Shown: positions 7,108-13,695 of the stretch, in pieces
How the letters are laid out: each line of letters begins with the position of its first letter
How positions within the stretch are numbered: the first letter of the stretch is position 1
Assembly: GCA_013204185.1 (NCBI GenBank)
Contig: JABMOI010000146.1
Span: 1 to 36,148, forward strand
DNA length: 36,148 nucleotides
Direction: 5' to 3'
DNA from: a bacterium
Lineage (GTDB): Bacteria > Bacteroidota > Rhodothermia > Rhodothermales > UBA10348
The notes under the pieces: model-generated
Told to the model about the DNA's origin: nothing
Seen by the model: the letters and a program-made list of their open reading frames with translations, nothing else
Database searches by the model: none
Made by a program: the position numbers and the translations under genes

Positions 7108-7533
7108 TCACGCTCTCATCTTGGTCATAAGACATTCGTTGAACCCTCCATGGTGCCGATACTCTACTGCATCCATCAACTTATGCATGATATGCACACC
7201 GAACCCGCCGGACTTTTTGGACTTGGCAAACTGGACTAAGTCTGGCTCTACGTAGGTTTTGCGATCGAATTCTGTTCCTTTATCCCGTATAACGACTACG
7301 AGCTTTTCAGGATCGACGTGGATTGAAATGTCGATGGGTTGACCGCTTTGTCCTCTGTAAGAGTGTTCAATTACGTTTGTGCAGGCTTCGTCGACCGCCA
7401 TTTTCATTTGTTCGACCGTCATCTCATTGAAACCAGCTTGCACAGCATGAGTCGTCACAAACTCGCGCACTTCTTCAAGGAAGCGCGTTGAGCTCGGAAT
7501 TGTCATTGTGTGCGTATTTGCGGTCACGTGCAA
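7108..7533 (-). CDS. Anti-sigma-factor-type serine kinase (RsbW/SpoIIAB-like ATPase)
   Basis: This 141-residue GHKL/HATPase_c_2 protein has the N box MAVDEACTNVIEHSY (Glu49 and Asn53), the G1 box IRDKGTEFD and the G2 loop SGGFGVHIM (108-116). Such kinases bind a sigma factor or other target and phosphorylate a STAS antagonist, which is encoded 18 bases upstream at 7552-7908. There is no sigma-factor gene nearby, so the target is unknown; it could be a sigma factor elsewhere or a non-transcriptional partner. Three starts are possible: TTG 7533, GTG 7527 and ATG 7506. The first beta strand of RsbW-like proteins seems to begin before the ATG, so a longer form is preferred, with moderate certainty. 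Confidence 0.9.
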   Translation of the reverse strand: MHVTANTHTMTIPSSTRFLEEVREFVTTHAVQAGFNEMTVEQMKMAVDEACTNVIEHSYRGQSGQPIDISIHVDPEKLVVVIRDKGTEFDRKTYVEPDLVQFAKSKKSGGFGVHIMHKLMDAVEYRHHGGFNECLMTKMRA

Positions 7534-7551: not shown

Positions 7552-7908
7552 TCAGGCGTTTGAAGGTTCAAATTTTCCTAGCGCGTCGACTTCTGAATCC
7601 ACGATATCGAACAGCATTGGAAATCCTAGCAAGTCAAAAACATTGAAAACCTTTGGCTGTAAAGCCGCAATTTTGATGTCGCCGCCGGCTTCACGTACTT
7701 CTTCGATGTAGGCCATAAAAACTCCCAAACCTGCGCTTGAGATGTACATCAAGTTGCTCCCATTGATCAGAATATGAACCAAATTGTCACGTTGGCACTT
7801 CTGAATAGCGGCTTCTAACTCGGATGCAGTATGGGCATCCAGTTCTCCCTTTAGGTCTAGTATTTGGATGTGTCCGCTGCTGCGGAATCCAACTGAAAAA
7901 TTACTCAT
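7552..7908 (-). CDS. STAS-domain anti-sigma factor antagonist (SpoIIAA/RsbV-like)
   Basis: This is a 118-residue single STAS domain. The regulatory loop reads NLMYISSAGLGVFM (52-65). The Ser in the SSAGLG motif (Ser57/Ser58; Ser58 by analogy with SpoIIAA) is the expected phosphorylation site. In partner switching, unphosphorylated antagonist captures the RsbW-type kinase and releases its target, and phosphorylated antagonist is inactive. The kinase gene follows after 18 bases and the PP2C phosphatase gene precedes by 70, so all three switch components are in one transcription unit. After the usual STAS end there is a short charged tail (ALGKFEPSNA). Function is inferred from the family and the neighbours. 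Confidence 0.93.
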   Translation of the reverse strand: MSNFSVGFRSSGHIQILDLKGELDAHTASELEAAIQKCQRDNLVHILINGSNLMYISSAGLGVFMAYIEEVREAGGDIKIAALQPKVFNVFDLLGFPMLFDIVDSEVDALGKFEPSNA

Positions 7909-7978: not shown

Positions 7979-9535
7979 TCATGCTGATTCATGTACGATT
8001 TGATTCGAGGATATGATGCTTTCCATGGGCAGTCCATGCCATTTTAACACAACAAGCGTCATATCATCGTCGTATTCTTCCCCGGCCATGAAGCTTCTTA
8101 AATCTCTCAAAATGGCCGCGTGTATGCCATCTGCGTCGTCGTGCCGGTGATCATTCAGCAGAGCTAAGAGTCGGTCATATCCGTATTCTTCGCCATCTGA
8201 TGAACGACTTTCTACGACTCCATCCGTGTATAAAACAAAGACGTCGCCCGGCTGAAGACTTATGTGCTCTTCCGTCAAGCTCCGCCTGAAAAGGTCACTT
8301 CGATCTAGTCCAAGTCCGAGACCTTTTGTCCGAATGTAGCGTGATTCTCCATTGAGCCTGATAATAGCAGCAGGGCAGTGACCGGCCCTTGCAAGGATCA
8401 TCTCTTCTTTCTCGAGGTCGAGGATCGCATAAATGGCCGAAATGAATATGTTACGATCCAAGCTTTGAGCCAATGCAACATTGGCGTGATGCAAAAAATC
8501 GGCAGGAGAGTCTGCTAAACGGCTAACAGATTGAAAAATGCCCTGCATTTCCGCCATGTAAAACGCTGCAGACGTTCCTTTGCCCGAAACATCTCCAATA
8601 ATCACACCTAGTTTTTTGTCAGCTAAGCGTACAAAATCGTAATAGTCGCCTCCAACTTCCTGAGCCGAAACGCTACTTGCGGCAATGGAAACCCCGCTCA
8701 TTACTGGTACATTTTGAGGAAGCAAGCGTCTTTGGACCTCTCTAGCAATGCTCATTTCACGGGACAAGCGCTCTTTTTCAACTTGTTGTTCGAAAAGGCG
8801 GGAATTGTCTATTGCAAGGGAAGCTTGTGCCGCAAAAACACTAATGGTCGCGATATCGTCGCGTTCAAAGCCGTTTACGACTTGTTTTGCTGCAAACAGA
8901 GCGCCAATTATCTCATCTCGTGCAATGAGTGGCACAGCAAGCAAACTCCCAATTTGTCCATTACTTGGCAGTACGGTGAGTCGGTGATCGGTCGATGCGC
9001 GTTGAATCACAATGGGATTTCTTTCGCCTATCATACTTTCAACCAACAGGTCTGAGTCTACCCACTCAGCAATTTGTTCGGATGAAATTTTATGAGTGCC
9101 AACGACTCGGTAGCGAAGATTTCCAGACGACGGGTCCGGCATTGCTAGCCATGAAAAATCAGCAGAACCGGCCTCAACTGGCGCAGATGTAACGGTTACG
9201 AACAAGCGTTCCGCATCAAAAACTTGGCTTACTAGATGGGCCAGCGAATACATGGTTGCGCGCTCGCCTTCCCTTTGCTCATAATCTCCTGAGGTTGGAA
9301 GATGAAATAGCAACGATAGAAAAGCGGTGATGCAGTACAGAATGCCGAAGATACTTGCCTGTTTGACGAAACTAGCAAGGGGCACGAAATAGAACTCTAG
9401 ATACTCAAATGATCTCGGAACCAGAATATTTACGCCGGAATTTCCAATGCCAAGGCCAAGCAAAAGGAGAGTAGCAAGAACAAAACAAAGGCCAATTGTG
9501 GCCATTTTCTCCTTAACGAAAGAAAAACGATCCAT
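7979..9535 (-). CDS. GAF + PP2C (SpoIIE/RsbU-type) protein phosphatase with N-terminal membrane helices
   Basis: The visible frame has 518 residues. There are two hydrophobic helices (about 14-31 and 60-79), a GAF sensor domain (about 105-245), a coiled-coil linker (245-272, EREMSIAREVQRRLLP-like) and a SpoIIE-type PP2C domain (285-500). The metal-binding motifs are VGGDYYD (294-300), GDVSGKG (314-320), AGHCP (384-388), YTDGV (436-440) and DDDMTL (489-494), and all acidic ligands are present. It would dephosphorylate the STAS protein encoded next. The ATG at 9535 lies 106 bases inside the preceding membrane-protein frame, and the first helix here is read from the same DNA as that protein's last helix. 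A one-base frame difference separating one ancestral multi-pass phosphatase into two frames is therefore likely, and the stated start may not be the true protein start. Confidence 0.88.
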   Translation of the reverse strand: MDRFSFVKEKMATIGLCFVLATLLLLGLGIGNSGVNILVPRSFEYLEFYFVPLASFVKQASIFGILYCITAFLSLLFHLPTSGDYEQREGERATMYSLAHLVSQVFDAERLFVTVTSAPVEAGSADFSWLAMPDPSSGNLRYRVVGTHKISSEQIAEWVDSDLLVESMIGERNPIVIQRASTDHRLTVLPSNGQIGSLLAVPLIARDEIIGALFAAKQVVNGFERDDIATISVFAAQASLAIDNSRLFEQQVEKERLSREMSIAREVQRRLLPQNVPVMSGVSIAASSVSAQEVGGDYYDFVRLADKKLGVIIGDVSGKGTSAAFYMAEMQGIFQSVSRLADSPADFLHHANVALAQSLDRNIFISAIYAILDLEKEEMILARAGHCPAAIIRLNGESRYIRTKGLGLGLDRSDLFRRSLTEEHISLQPGDVFVLYTDGVVESRSSDGEEYGYDRLLALLNDHRHDDADGIHAAILRDLRSFMAGEEYDDDMTLVVLKWHGLPMESIISSNQIVHESA

Positions 9536-10194
9536 GAAAGTTTAAATGCATTCACCAGCATGAAAACGACGGCCACAATGAAGGCAATATTCTGCCACTC
9601 GTTTTGGGACGATCCGGCAGGCTTCATGACCGTTAGAACCGAAGCAAATGCCATGAGAGTCAGCATAATGAACCAATTGCGCTGGCTCGTTTTTGTGCGC
9701 TTGACTAACACCAAAAGTTGAAGGCGATGCATCAGAATGAACGCGAATAGAACCTGAGCAAGGCTGATGACCATCATTTTCACGATGGTGGGAGACGTCA
9801 GAGGTACGCTGGTGTCCGGGGCAAACCCGAGGGGAAGTTCAAGTCCACCTGCTGAAATGGTACCGAAGCGCGATGTGAAACCAGCGATAGCCACCAAAAC
9901 AAAGCCCGACACCATAACAGACCATAAAATTCTGGAGGGGGAGGCATTCCGATCTTGAAAATACCCCTTCATCCAGAACCACAAGGATCCGAACCCGACC
10001 GTTACGCACACTGCATAAAGCAACTCGGTGCCCATGGCAGCCGGAGAGCCGCTGGCCAGCTCAATGAAGTGGTATCCAATTGAAAGCAGGAAACAAGAGC
10101 CAAAAACCACCGCTAAGAGCAAGGAAACGCCCTTCTCCGCAAGGCGGGAAGTCCACTTTTTCGATGCTGATTGTTGAGGAATGGCTTCAGCCAT
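9430..10194 (-). CDS. Multi-pass membrane protein, probable N-terminal sensor segment of the adjacent phosphatase
   Basis: The 254-residue product has about seven hydrophobic segments (for example near residues 22-40, 55-71, 88-108, 130-152, 168-185, 197-212 and 228-250) and no enzymatic motif. The ATG at 10194 gives a short hydrophilic N-terminus (MAEAIPQQSASKKW) before the first helix; a TTG at 10248 would add 18 residues. Its last 35 codons (106 bases with the stop) overlap the start of the GAF-PP2C phosphatase in the -1 frame. RsbU-type phosphatases with a long multi-pass N-terminus before GAF are known, and the stretch around NAFKLSWIVFLSLRRKW looks like the end of such a segment. I infer that the two frames were, or are, one protein of about 750 residues. 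Two interacting proteins translated by coupling remain possible. Confidence 0.75.
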   Translation of the reverse strand: MAEAIPQQSASKKWTSRLAEKGVSLLLAVVFGSCFLLSIGYHFIELASGSPAAMGTELLYAVCVTVGFGSLWFWMKGYFQDRNASPSRILWSVMVSGFVLVAIAGFTSRFGTISAGGLELPLGFAPDTSVPLTSPTIVKMMVISLAQVLFAFILMHRLQLLVLVKRTKTSQRNWFIMLTLMAFASVLTVMKPAGSSQNEWQNIAFIVAVVFMLVNAFKLSWIVFLSLRRKWPQLAFVLFLLLSFCLALALEIPA

Positions 10195-10285
10195 AGACTG
10201 GAGTAGGAGGTACGTTTGATGTTGAGGCGTTGTACCGAGCAATTCCAAGGATTGTTACAGTAGCGCGATCCTCTAAGGTAGCTAT

Positions 10286-10335
10286 CAAACATTCAGCATT
10301 AAAGACGCACTCTATTGATCTGTGCTGAATGTTTG
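10286..10335. promoter_or_regulatory. Perfect 13-bp inverted repeat in the divergent promoter region
   Basis: CAAACATTCAGCA (10286-10298) is repeated as its exact reverse complement TGCTGAATGTTTG (10323-10335), with a 24-base spacer. It lies between the start of the membrane/phosphatase operon (10194, minus strand) and the start of the four-module protein (10402, plus strand), 66 bases from the latter. The position suits a divergent operator or an RNA hairpin in a 5' leader. Arm spacing from centre to centre is 37 bases, between three and four helical turns. Confidence 0.6.
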
Positions 10336-10401
10336 CAGTCGGTAAAGTAACTTCAACCCCGTCTAAGCGTAGAGGAAGCCTATTCATCTGAACCCACTCC
10401 C

Positions 10402-12162
10402 ATGCGAAAACGTCGCCTCGTAAAAACCCAGCTTTTTCTGCTCATTGTAACCGTGGGACTTATTGTCTGGCGAATGAACACAGATATCGACAAAAGCGAC
10501 GGATTTGTATCGTTTACGCATCTTACTGTTCGACATTTATACCAAGAGCATTTTCAAGTGAGCGATACCTTGATGGTTTCGATTGAAGCCAAGGCTGCTT
10601 TTGAAAATGAAACGGCCAGTCAAGAACTCGTTGTGTATCCATGGATTGTGAACCAATCGAATCACACGGTTGTTTGGCAAATGGATCCAAACGCTTCGAC
10701 TCGCGACGGTGTACAAGCATCGGTACAGGATTCCGTTCAGTTGGTGCCCGGGGTGTACACCGCTTACTATACAACGTATGGTCCAACTAGGGCGTCTTCT
10801 CGAGGAGGTGCATTTTTGGGCCTCAAACCACATTGGACAAACGATCCCGGTTTTTGGAAGCTCACGTTATCGGCAGCTAGCGGTCAACAGTTTGTAACGA
10901 TCCTGAAAGATGCGCCCCAATCCTCAAACGTGGTAGAAGGGCTGTCTGAAATGTGGTCGTTTGAGCCAAGTTATAGCAGGCAGTCTTCAAACCGAGTATT
11001 TCGAGTCAAAACCGCGACCCCAATCCGAGCCACTGGCACGGCTGCTATTTGTTCTTCAAGATGCGACGATGTCCGGATTTACTCCATACCAAGTGAGGTA
11101 TCCGTTTGGAGTTTATCCGAAGACATGACGATTCCAGCCGGTGGCGCGGGCACCAATAGGTCTTTTGACCTGAATATTGAACTCGATGCAGGATTGTATC
11201 GAATCGAGTACACCGTCGGGAGCGATCAGGTATCTCGATCCTGGCAGTCGAACCCGCCTACGTTTCCATCCGAATGGAGAACCACCTTCTATACATCGGA
11301 CGAGAATAATATTTTTGAGTTTGATCCATGGGCGACAGAAGCTCCGCTTATTTCGTTGTTAGAAGTACGCGATAGTGAACGGCTAAGCGTTACACTAGAA
11401 TTGGACAAACAACTCACCGTTGTAGTCTTTGCTATGGGCGAGGTGCGAAGCAGCGACTCAAAGTATGACTACGGATGGATTGAAAAGGAAGGTCGTGGAG
11501 CAAGGGTCTGGGAGATGTCCTACGAAAAAAGCATACCCGCAGGCGGAGACGAAACCAACCGACAGGAAATGGGGATTATTACGCTTGAACCAGGTCGCTA
11601 CTTTGTCAAATATGAATCTGACGGCTCTCATAGTTATCGGAGCTGGAATAAGGCTGGTCCTGATAATGGCGAGCGTTGGGGAATTGCTCTCTTTGCATTG
11701 AATCCGGATGAGGTCGATTCCTCTGTTCGGGTAGTGGAAACACCCCAAGCTTGGACCACGGATGCAGCGCCATCCGAAGCAACCGTTGTTACGGGAGACT
11801 CAATCTTGATTCGAAATCGATTAGGGGACGACGCTCACATCAATGAACGATTTGTACTGAGCGAGGCCACTGCTCTCCACATCGTGGCAATGGGAGAGAT
11901 TACAGGAAGCTCGAAATATGATTTCGGCTGGATTGAGCGAGTTTCAGATGGCGAGAAAGTTTGGGAAATGACCTACCAGAACACGACGAGCGCTGGCGGC
12001 GCAGATCGAAATAGACGATTTTCTGGAACACTATCGCTCGAGCCTGGAGAATACCGTGCCTATTTCGATACTGATTTCAGTCATTCCTACGGGAATTTTG
12101 ATGACGATCAACCATCGAATGGGCAAGACTGGGGCATCGCTATCTATAAGGTTGGCCAGTAA
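10402..12162 (+). CDS. Membrane-anchored protein with four repeated beta-rich modules, function unknown
   Basis: I do not recognise a named family. The 586-residue protein starts with a positively charged N-terminus and one hydrophobic helix (about 9-24), so the rest is probably outside the cytoplasmic membrane. Four related modules follow at about 36-157, 196-298, 327-433 and 467-583. Modules 2-4 share an order of short motifs: VW[SE][LM], PAGG...TNR (SAGG...NR in module 4), L[DE][AP]G.Y...Y, a Ser/Tyr-rich SHSY.. or SRSW, and a closing W...[FIL][FY]. Modules 3 and 4 are most alike and also share AMGE followed by KYD[YF]GWIE. Module 1 is the most diverged. The pattern suggests ligand-binding beta-sandwiches, as in pre-peptidase C-terminal-type domains, but that is a guess. 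It faces the partner-switching operon across the 13-bp inverted repeat and is followed after 9 bases by a sugar-kinase gene. Confidence 0.85.
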   Translation: MRKRRLVKTQLFLLIVTVGLIVWRMNTDIDKSDGFVSFTHLTVRHLYQEHFQVSDTLMVSIEAKAAFENETASQELVVYPWIVNQSNHTVVWQMDPNASTRDGVQASVQDSVQLVPGVYTAYYTTYGPTRASSRGGAFLGLKPHWTNDPGFWKLTLSAASGQQFVTILKDAPQSSNVVEGLSEMWSFEPSYSRQSSNRVFRVKTATPIRATGTAAICSSRCDDVRIYSIPSEVSVWSLSEDMTIPAGGAGTNRSFDLNIELDAGLYRIEYTVGSDQVSRSWQSNPPTFPSEWRTTFYTSDENNIFEFDPWATEAPLISLLEVRDSERLSVTLELDKQLTVVVFAMGEVRSSDSKYDYGWIEKEGRGARVWEMSYEKSIPAGGDETNRQEMGIITLEPGRYFVKYESDGSHSYRSWNKAGPDNGERWGIALFALNPDEVDSSVRVVETPQAWTTDAAPSEATVVTGDSILIRNRLGDDAHINERFVLSEATALHIVAMGEITGSSKYDFGWIERVSDGEKVWEMTYQNTTSAGGADRNRRFSGTLSLEPGEYRAYFDTDFSHSYGNFDDDQPSNGQDWGIAIYKVGQ

Positions 12163-12171
12163 CGTCACACA

Positions 12172-13695
12172 ATGAATCGCTATTTCGTCGGGATTGATCT
12201 AGGAAGCTCGTTTGTAAAAGTATCTCTTTTGGATGCGGATCTAGGAAGAGAAGTCGCTTTTTCTTCTAATCCACCCGAAGAAATGACAATCCATTCGGGC
12301 CAAAAGGGATGGGCGGAGCAAGACCCAGAGGTATGGTGGAGCATGGTTCAGGATGGAATACACCACGTTCTTCAAACGTCAGGAATCGATCCGCTTGAGA
12401 TCGAATCCTTTGGAATTAGTGCCCAAATGCATGGGCTAGTGGCCATAGATGGTCAAGGAAATGTGGTCCGGCCTTCCATAATATGGTGCGACGGTCGCGC
12501 CGTCAGCATTGGGGAAGATGCCCTTTTGAAGTTAGGCTCCGCGTGGTGTAATACCCACTTATTGAATGCGCCTGGGAATTTTACAGCTTCAAAGCTTGAG
12601 TGGGTTCGCGCCAACGAACCCGACGAGTTCAAGCGCATCGATAAGATCTTGTTGCCTTCGGATTTCATCGCTTTCAAACTGACAGGTGAGATTACCACTA
12701 CAGCGTGCAGTCTGTCGGAAGGCATGCTCTGGGATTTTAAAGAAGACCGACCAGCCTACGGCGTCTTAGACTTGTGGGGAATGGAGCACTCTCTCATTGC
12801 TGAACTGGTCCCTGCAATTGGTTTCCAGGGCGCCGTATCTAAAGAAGTGGCTACCACGTTCGGTATTCGTGACTCGACTACGGTGTCGTTTCGTTGCGGC
12901 GACCAACCAAACAATGCATTTTCTTTAAATGTGACTGAGGTAGGCGATATAGCGGTAACCGCTGGTACGTCTGCCGTTTTATACGCTTTGACAGGGAAGC
13001 CGGCTGCAGACGCGTACAATCGGGTAAACACGTTTTTGCATCCCACTAAGGCTACTGAAAGTCCGGTCCAGGGTGTTTTGGCTTGCCTAAATGGAGGCGG
13101 TAAGTGGCACCATTGGTTGAAAAACGTGCTGAGCGGCCCAGTTACGGCTAGCAGCCAAATGGCTTCTTCGAGTCAGTTTTATGAACACATGGACAACCTC
13201 GCTCAGTCGGTTCCAAGCGGAAGTGATGGGTTGATGGTGTTTCCATTTGGAAACGGCCCTGAGCGACTATTGAATAATAGAAATGAAGGGGCTCAAATAG
13301 CCGGAATTCAATTTAACACGCACCAGGCTGGACACCTGGTCAGAGCGGGAATGGAAGGCGTTGCTTATTCCCTATGTCTCGGTCTTGAAGTACTCGGCGA
13401 ATTGGGGATTTCTCCTGCCAAGATGCGCGCAGGGCTCAATAACATGTTTCTTAGCCCCTTCTTTCAGCACATATTTGTCAACACGTGTAAAACGAGCCTG
13501 AGTCTCTACGAAACGAATGGCGCTGAAGGGGCAGCCAGGGGTGCAGCGCTTGGGGCAGGCTATTATTCGTCAGAAAAGGAAGCCGCTGAGAAACTGAAAC
13601 CCGTTCGGACAGTGGAACCGGACCATGCCAAGGCAGATGAGGTTGCAGATCACTTTGGAAAGTGGAAATCGCATCTAGCCGCCGCGCACTTTTGA
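12172..13695 (+). CDS. FGGY-family carbohydrate kinase, xylulokinase-like
   Basis: The 507-residue protein has the FGGY kinase layout. FVGIDLGSS (5-13) is the first phosphate loop, SAQMHGL (83-89) is the xylulokinase-type QMHG motif, IIWCDGRA (103-110) belongs to the sugar-binding half, CGDQPNNAF (242-250) carries the catalytic base Asp244, and VTAGTSAVLYAL (262-273) is the adenosine-side loop. FGGY kinases phosphorylate free sugars or polyols with ATP; D-xylulose is the best guess, but no isomerase or sugar transporter is next to it, so the substrate stays open. The ATG at 12172 is 9 bases after the stop of the four-module protein, implying co-transcription. prmA follows after 19 bases. Confidence 0.9.
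   Translation: MNRYFVGIDLGSSFVKVSLLDADLGREVAFSSNPPEEMTIHSGQKGWAEQDPEVWWSMVQDGIHHVLQTSGIDPLEIESFGISAQMHGLVAIDGQGNVVRPSIIWCDGRAVSIGEDALLKLGSAWCNTHLLNAPGNFTASKLEWVRANEPDEFKRIDKILLPSDFIAFKLTGEITTTACSLSEGMLWDFKEDRPAYGVLDLWGMEHSLIAELVPAIGFQGAVSKEVATTFGIRDSTTVSFRCGDQPNNAFSLNVTEVGDIAVTAGTSAVLYALTGKPAADAYNRVNTFLHPTKATESPVQGVLACLNGGGKWHHWLKNVLSGPVTASSQMASSSQFYEHMDNLAQSVPSGSDGLMVFPFGNGPERLLNNRNEGAQIAGIQFNTHQAGHLVRAGMEGVAYSLCLGLEVLGELGISPAKMRAGLNNMFLSPFFQHIFVNTCKTSLSLYETNGAEGAARGAALGAGYYSSEKEAAEKLKPVRTVEPDHAKADEVADHFGKWKSHLAAAHF

Follow-up and report, generated by a model that had tools for sequence, protein, structure and literature searches.

A four-module protein gene opposite a partner-switching gene set

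The window, by which we mean the whole 36,148-nucleotide stretch of DNA analysed here, comes from a bacterium of the order Rhodothermales and contains a gene for a protein built from four related modules. This gene is transcribed divergently from a gene encoding a membrane SpoIIE phosphatase, which is followed by STAS and then HATPase_c_2 genes; together the three constitute an RsbU-type set, with the phosphatase gene frameshifted in this assembly. The features of the locus are as follows:

Positions 7108-7533, minus strand: HATPase_c_2 protein, putatively of the RsbW-like class (PF13581, 6.4e-31)
Positions 7552-7908, minus strand: STAS protein, putatively of the anti-anti-sigma class (PF01740, 2.4e-15)
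Positions 7979-9535, minus strand: GAF and SpoIIE part of the phosphatase gene, 3' piece (SpoIIE 1.2e-46, GAF_2 8.2e-11)
Positions 9430-10248, minus strand: membrane part of the same frameshifted SpoIIE phosphatase gene, 5' piece (a single 750-aa ORF in the relative L031)
Positions 10249-10401, no strand: 153-base intergenic stretch between the divergent module and phosphatase genes
Positions 10402-12162, plus strand: four-module extracytoplasmic protein (586 aa, ATG start)
Positions 10411-10479, plus strand: N-terminal membrane helix, residues 4-26 (helix in the AlphaFold2 model; hydropathy in relatives)
Positions 10531-10812, plus strand: module 1, degenerate, residues 44-137 (profile E 1e-9; profile-profile 98-99%)
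Positions 10975-11295, plus strand: module 2, residues 192-298 (profile E 1e-15; the window's lineage has lost two residues of the acidic triad, the first E and the second D)
Positions 11371-11697, plus strand: module 3, residues 324-432 (profile E 3e-39; acidic triad E347, D356, D407)
Positions 11827-12150, plus strand: module 4, residues 476-583 (profile E 1e-43; acidic triad E499, D507, D558)

A frameshift near 9.5 kb (9430-9535) divides the phosphatase gene, and its two ORFs align to consecutive parts of the L031 protein. Unsplit copies occur in relatives, and the frameshift reflects either an assembly error or recent decay. A sequence-only reading of this DNA had described the partner-switching set as complete, which it is not in the window, given the broken phosphatase ORF. 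On the other side of the module gene, a sugar-kinase-like ORF (12172-13695, plus strand) lies before a PrmA-like ORF; its homologue is on the minus strand in the relatives L031-L033, the result of either a local inversion or a replacement.

The four homologous modules, each about 108 residues long, were delineated with a single-module profile (A4) built from 37 modules, namely window modules 3 and 4 plus modules 2-4 of relatives. This profile matched the protein with E values from 1e-9 to 1e-43 and none of 780 shuffled sequences, and in a six-frame search of the bacterium's own genome it found modules at the same four places and nowhere else. Because A4 contains window modules 3 and 4, the independent evidence for homology comes from pairwise shuffles and profile-profile comparison. 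Modules 2-4 aligned to one another with scores above all 1000 shuffles; module 1 was weaker, its score being reached by 171 of 1000 shuffles against module 2, 4 of 1000 against module 3 and 0 against module 4. When the modules were built across 24 orthologues, all six pairs were related at 98-100% probability. These three lines of evidence bear out the four related modules proposed in the sequence-only reading, and the motifs quoted there are present, with AMGE...KYD[YF]GWIE common to modules 3 and 4.

Basic residues (MRKRRLVK) at the N-terminus lie ahead of the helix at residues 4-26, an arrangement that looks like a membrane anchor and would put the modules on the outer side. In most relatives from other orders the N-terminus looks instead like a signal peptide, with no anchor, as judged by eye from hydropathy and sequence. 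Both observations agree with the earlier placement of the modules outside the membrane, and whether the N-terminus is an anchor or a signal peptide the modules are extracytoplasmic. The N-termini of L054 and L071, both from outside the order, look anchored.

The module gene was present in 38 of 41 genomes (the bacterium's own and 40 relatives). A named scan returned 47 loci from Rhodothermales, Calditrichota/Caldithrix, KSB1, Zixibacteria, Ignavibacteria, Kapaibacterium, Eisenbacteria and unclassified Bacteroidota, with four modules counted in at least one locus of each group. Given its presence in 38 of 41 genomes and its four-module relatives in other groups, the module family is old. We aligned the window sequence with 38 of the 47 loci, leaving out L040, L042, L046, L047, L048, L051, L060, L066 and L077 as near-duplicate, partial or having no clear start, or, for L077, as weakly similar. 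A4 counted four modules in 38 of these 39 sequences and six in L052. Among the loci left out, L040, L042, L046, L048 and L066 have four modules each, the partial L047 and L051 have three, L060 has three in its main ORF and one in an overlapping ORF, and L077 has one. The six-module relative is from Calditrichota (L052:7722-10355), and one of the 24 members from the order gave a five-module count.

A module scan of the phylum gave matches in 43 of 247 genomes and revealed two architectures: proteins of ~450-700 aa consisting of modules alone, mostly four, and proteins of ~1190-1330 aa with one module. The complete genome of Roseithermus sacchariphilus MEBiC09517 encodes the module protein and has its phosphatase elsewhere, and in a Rhodothermus metagenome assembly (L064) the module gene adjoins switch genes. 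Two further genomes, G026 (one contig) and G040 (two contigs), have the module gene as well as the phosphatase gene, and their module proteins share 91-92% identity with the L064 protein. Three members of one genus of the order (G036, G224 and G228, with 3.6 Mb genomes) are without the module protein, and G036 is also without the SpoIIE phosphatase.

The window protein had no match in Pfam, NCBIfam or PDB sequences, in keeping with the earlier statement that the family could not be named. Its relatives gave only weak, mutually inconsistent matches to 21 Pfam families (E up to 0.05), including AMPK1_CBM, CopC, DUF5013, DUF4458 and DUF6786, and a single NCBIfam family was matched, in one of 39 sequences. 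When ten relatives were scanned in detail, 2 of 23 Pfam rows had a stretch that passed alone and 1 of 23 was above the family cut-off; this last row was AMPK1_CBM in the six-module L052, at 28.9 bits and with no single stretch passing. We took the weak Pfam rows as weak repeats summed over a protein. A viral origin was set aside: viral contigs gave 34 pattern matches, and no relative is encoded at any of them. In the PMC literature we found no title or abstract describing the module, and it may be described in print elsewhere.

Predicted fold and a conserved acidic site

AlphaFold2 modelled the full protein with a mean pLDDT of 88.8 and a pTM of 0.68, and module 4 alone with a pLDDT of 94.4 and a pTM of 0.86. 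The predicted module fold is a jelly roll of the CUB/PPC/GOLD type, and the beta-sandwich anticipated from sequence is thereby supported by both the models and structure comparison. With the single-module model, collagen-binding/PPC, GOLD and CUB domains were tied at Z ~7. The CUB rows, which ranked with the lowest for rmsd, gave 2.2-2.8 Å at Z 5.7-7.0, where a Z under 8 may reflect a common arrangement, and included Kremen CUB (Z 7.0, 2.2 Å over 81), C1s CUB1 (Z 6.8, 2.5 Å over 83) and C1r CUB2 (Z 6.3, 2.3 Å over 82); the best PPC row was 5sv5 (Z 7.4, 2.9 Å over 81). With the full model the values were Z 8.2 and 2.5 Å over 92 for Kremen CUB, and Z 8.5 and 3.0 Å over 91 for PPC.

We did not retain rmsd as an argument for CUB alone, as enterotoxin C-terminal domains (2.2 Å over 73) and an immune-inhibitor peptidase domain (2.5 Å over 87) were equally close. 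Foldseek placed influenza hemagglutinin heads best for the single module (E ~2e-3, rmsd ~7 Å), which we took as meaningless, and all 19 rows with E ≤0.001 for the full model had an rmsd of at least 15 Å, a hint at most. Membership of either family by sequence was likewise rejected: neither CUB (PF00431, up to E 0.05) nor PPC (PF04151, in the Pfam scan) matched any of the 39 sequences or the bacterium's own genome, and hhalign gave 2.2% probability with 9 bacterial CUB sequences and 0.5% with 12 PPC sequences. A combined-term query found no literature on bacterial CUB domains. The likeness to CUB domains, which bind calcium in complement C1r/C1s, MASP, Kremen and cubilin, thus consists of the predicted beta-sandwich and motif spacing. 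Tandem CUB proteins also exist, several of them among the structure-comparison rows, and in this they are like the tandem modules here, whereas the AGG..NR and WG features that the modules keep are absent from the CUB rows compared.

Modules 3 and 4 share a site of the pattern E-x7/8-D ... D-x-S-H. Its E, D and D are invariant in both modules in all 39 aligned sequences, as are the G before the E, a W, a second G and an N; S and H are found in 36-39, the S of D-x-S in 38 of 39 (module 3) and 36 of 39 (module 4). Module 2 of the window genome has A for E and G for D in the alignment, while most relatives keep the motif there. As described in PMC4222235, Glu45, Asp98 and Ser100 of C1s CUB1 contact a lysine of the ligand, and the calcium site requires Asp53. 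Module 4 has the spacing of C1s CUB1 as given there, namely 8 from E to D and 2 from D to S; in module 3 these distances are 9 and 2. At the sequence level, then, modules 3 and 4 have acidic residues at CUB calcium/ligand positions (E, YD, D-x-S). The weak profile alignment (2.2%) sets YD on YD and TD on the SD of bacterial CUB domains, in which the first E is nearer to the D than in the modules. The resemblance of this site to the calcium site of complement CUB domains is suggestive, not proof. The most likely role of the acidic site of modules 3 and 4, which most relatives also keep in module 2, is to bind a ligand together with a divalent metal, probably calcium.

Module fusions and gene neighbourhoods

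Among the matches listed, eighteen propeller sensors with one embedded module were found, in 11 of the 247 genomes of the phylum, and per-genome match counts leave no further fusions beyond these in the 11 genomes. Each of the 18 long proteins, three of which are cut by the ends of the retrieved stretches, has one module by profile. Pfam, run on 14 of them, found Reg_prop and Y_Y_Y in all 14, SpoIIE in 11, and HisKA with HATPase_c in two; the L116 fusion, read to the contig end, has HisKA_3, and the remaining four have a SpoIIE domain in the same frame according to a SpoIIE search of the same genomes. The outputs therefore total 15 SpoIIE domains and three histidine kinases. Y_Y_Y frames ending in SpoIIE made up 15 of 18 with a module and 14 of 117 without one in these 11 genomes (Fisher p 1.4e-9, relatedness of genomes ignored; background frames drawn from 135 of 139 matches over the cut-off). 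As the 15 SpoIIE fusions come from three families and seven genera, several as tandem copies, the independent events are few.

In the fusions the module starts at residue 523-592 (16 proteins with a complete N-terminal side) and is flanked on both sides by blade-like motifs. The G, E, D and D of the acidic site are invariant in all 18, and W46 (15/18), G57 (10) and S85 (10) vary. A 19th fusion, L077:3294-8015 from a Saprospiraceae locus, is a hybrid sensor 1574 residues long. It combines a propeller and Y_Y_Y with kinase, receiver and AraC-type HTH parts, and its module is placed differently from the others, at residues 262-387. The 19 cases seen thus place the same module in two-component propeller (Reg_prop/Y_Y_Y) sensors. 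The window protein differs from such sensors in having no propeller and no output domain in the Pfam scan, only four modules. In all nine genomes with SpoIIE-type fusions, the fusion genes are immediately preceded, on their own strand, by a further SpoIIE gene with an open frame of 535-552 aa (L111-L113, L117-L121 and L123, and their contigs). One locus, L111 (G252), carries four tandem genes of ~1250 aa, each with propeller, one module, Y_Y_Y and SpoIIE, with a further SpoIIE gene preceding them.

In the 25 loci from outside the order, phmmer (E 1e-6) found nothing homologous to the window's switch genes in the retrieved flanks. The sequence-only reading had proposed a surface or envelope function linked to the switch; the link gains support from the SpoIIE and kinase fusions found elsewhere, and loses some from these 25 loci. 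Five of them (L050, L055, L057, L058 and L072) have an Omp85-type barrel gene before the module gene and a DUF4097 (Toastrack) gene after it, with Omp85 recognised by Pfam in three and DUF4097 in four, and the rest by phmmer. The barrel has a weakly bactofilin-like N-terminal stretch in these loci, and in L072 the barrel and module genes are separated by two ORFs, one of which is weakly related to the DUF4097 protein. Of the five records, four bear the name Caldithrix or Calditrichota/Calditrichia. In three other loci of the 25 (L054, L062 and L071) the module gene is preceded by two genes of one recurring pair, presumably TldD/PmbA-like. The gene-neighbour table covers the loci other than L035, L044, L045, L046 and L047.

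These surroundings bear on the possibility that the protein binds surfaces or maintains envelope integrity and senses nothing, its modules stabilising the envelope through binding of calcium, glycans or proteins, and its link to the switch being incidental. The barrel/module/DUF4097 arrangement in 5 of 25 loci, and the mostly unanchored protein with a signal peptide outside the order, would fit such a role, and the lack of switch genes near the 25 loci together with the DUF4097/Omp85 context makes an envelope role without the switch conceivable. It would not account for the joining of a single module to a SpoIIE or histidine-kinase output, seen in L077 and in every one of the 18 long proteins, and PMC11237479 connects DUF4097/Toastrack itself with the signalling of envelope stress. 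We regard such a role as rather unlikely. In the Toastrack neighbourhoods the DUF4097-type gene is directly downstream of the module gene, whereas the loci of the window's order contain no DUF4097 relative by phmmer with two such proteins as queries. Toastrack, as described in PMC11237479, is a right-handed beta-helix, unlike the module fold.

Within the order, the module gene and the phosphatase gene (scored at a threshold of 1e-60) occur together in 34 of the 41 genomes; four genomes, all of one genus, have the module gene only, none has the phosphatase only, and three (G018, G020 and G036) have neither. The joint occurrence has a p of 0.003, or 0.05 if a partial match in G018 is counted as a phosphatase; this genome, 88% complete, was scored as lacking the gene since its sole match covers the catalytic part alone. 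In 28 of the 34 genomes the two genes lie side by side on one contig and point away from each other, and in 20 genomes other than the window's the gap between match edges is 178-424 bases, values that are upper bounds. The phosphatase gene of G011 (= L034) has its membrane part beside the module gene and the remainder on another contig, and in G023, G028 and G010 the genes are on different contigs, with one or both of them at a contig end. In G027 the phosphatase is on another contig, with 27 kb between the module gene and an end of the contig that carries it, and in the one-contig genome G030 the two genes are far apart. The four genomes that keep the module gene with no phosphatase found belong to genus g3, and three loci of this type (L037, L038 and L040) still have the STAS and HATPase genes beside it. 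The SpoIIE homologue beside the module gene in G037:C29:30707-32776 has an unusually long open frame (1442 aa) and is possibly a fusion.

Such linkage could also arise if the module gene were a target of the switch, turned on by it and read from the shared 153-base intergenic stretch. The divergent arrangement and short intergenic stretch would allow a single control region, and the full phosphatase is never found without the module gene among the 41 genomes. Retention of the module gene in four genomes without the phosphatase argues the other way, and the sensor fusions would be left unexplained, which makes this improbable. That the two genes adjoin merely because a whole block is conserved across the order (a block we take, from homology to window ORFs, to comprise PFK, UbiE, the switch, the module gene, PrmA, PPX and Mrp) is suggested by its synteny in many loci of the order and by the separated genes of G030 and G027, but is very improbable given the three joint absences (G018 with the reservation above), a full phosphatase alone in 0 of 41 genomes, and the module fusions elsewhere.

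A candidate extracytoplasmic input to partner switching

The reading we favour, at a rough probability of 45%, is that the module protein is an extracytoplasmic and probably calcium-dependent ligand-binding receptor that feeds the partner switch. Four CUB-like jelly-roll modules would be held at the inner membrane by one helix, and in the window's order the protein would work with the divergently encoded membrane GAF-SpoIIE phosphatase, which we infer to be its functional partner from the linkage of the two genes. The ligand state of the modules, set at a putative metal site, would be passed through a contact to the membrane part of the phosphatase, so that signalling would run from modules to enzyme; the phosphatase would then dephosphorylate the STAS protein, which in that state would bind the HATPase protein and free the target of the latter, as the output of the switch. 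In other families of the phylum, SpoIIE phosphatases or histidine kinases have one such module inserted in their own periplasmic propeller head.

The most economical account of the fusions and the linkage is an extracytoplasmic ligand-binding module family that acts as input to SpoIIE partner switches and, less often among the cases found, to histidine kinases. RsbU/RsbP-type SpoIIE (PPM) phosphatases are the same output class as the neighbouring GAF and SpoIIE gene and 15 of the 18 fusions, and the ending of 3 of 18 fusions and of L077 in kinases stands against SpoIIE exclusivity. A role that goes beyond a single phosphatase is suggested by the g3 genomes, which keep the module gene alone, by the kinase fusions and by the DUF4097 loci.

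The RsbU N-terminus, PAS, GAF, response receiver and HAMP domains are cytoplasmic types of sensory domain. Such domains are named for PPM phosphatases in PMC12143880; unlike them, the candidate sensor here lies outside the cytoplasm and, in the window, is encoded by a gene of its own. According to a proposal in PMC12143880, PPM phosphatases and histidine kinases can exchange their sensory domains through coiled-coil linkers, and exchangeable domains of this kind fit the two output classes of the module fusions.

Four-module proteins and the module of the propeller fusions are without a Pfam name, and the former also without an NCBIfam name, which marks a gap in domain libraries. The invariant acidic site offers concrete residues to mutate, and the module gene a concrete deletion target. 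To our knowledge, how partner-switching phosphatases sense outside conditions is poorly known beyond Bacillus-type systems. We tentatively suggest, with less confidence than for the window protein itself, that the modules form a previously undescribed, FCB-group-wide family of calcium-dependent CUB-like domains that provide the extracytoplasmic input of SpoIIE partner switches and some histidine kinases, either as a four-module co-receptor acting in trans or as a single module in propeller sensors. The module is probably a signal-sensing part of stress switches, and if this proposal is true, it would provide a periplasmic ligand-sensing route into partner switching.
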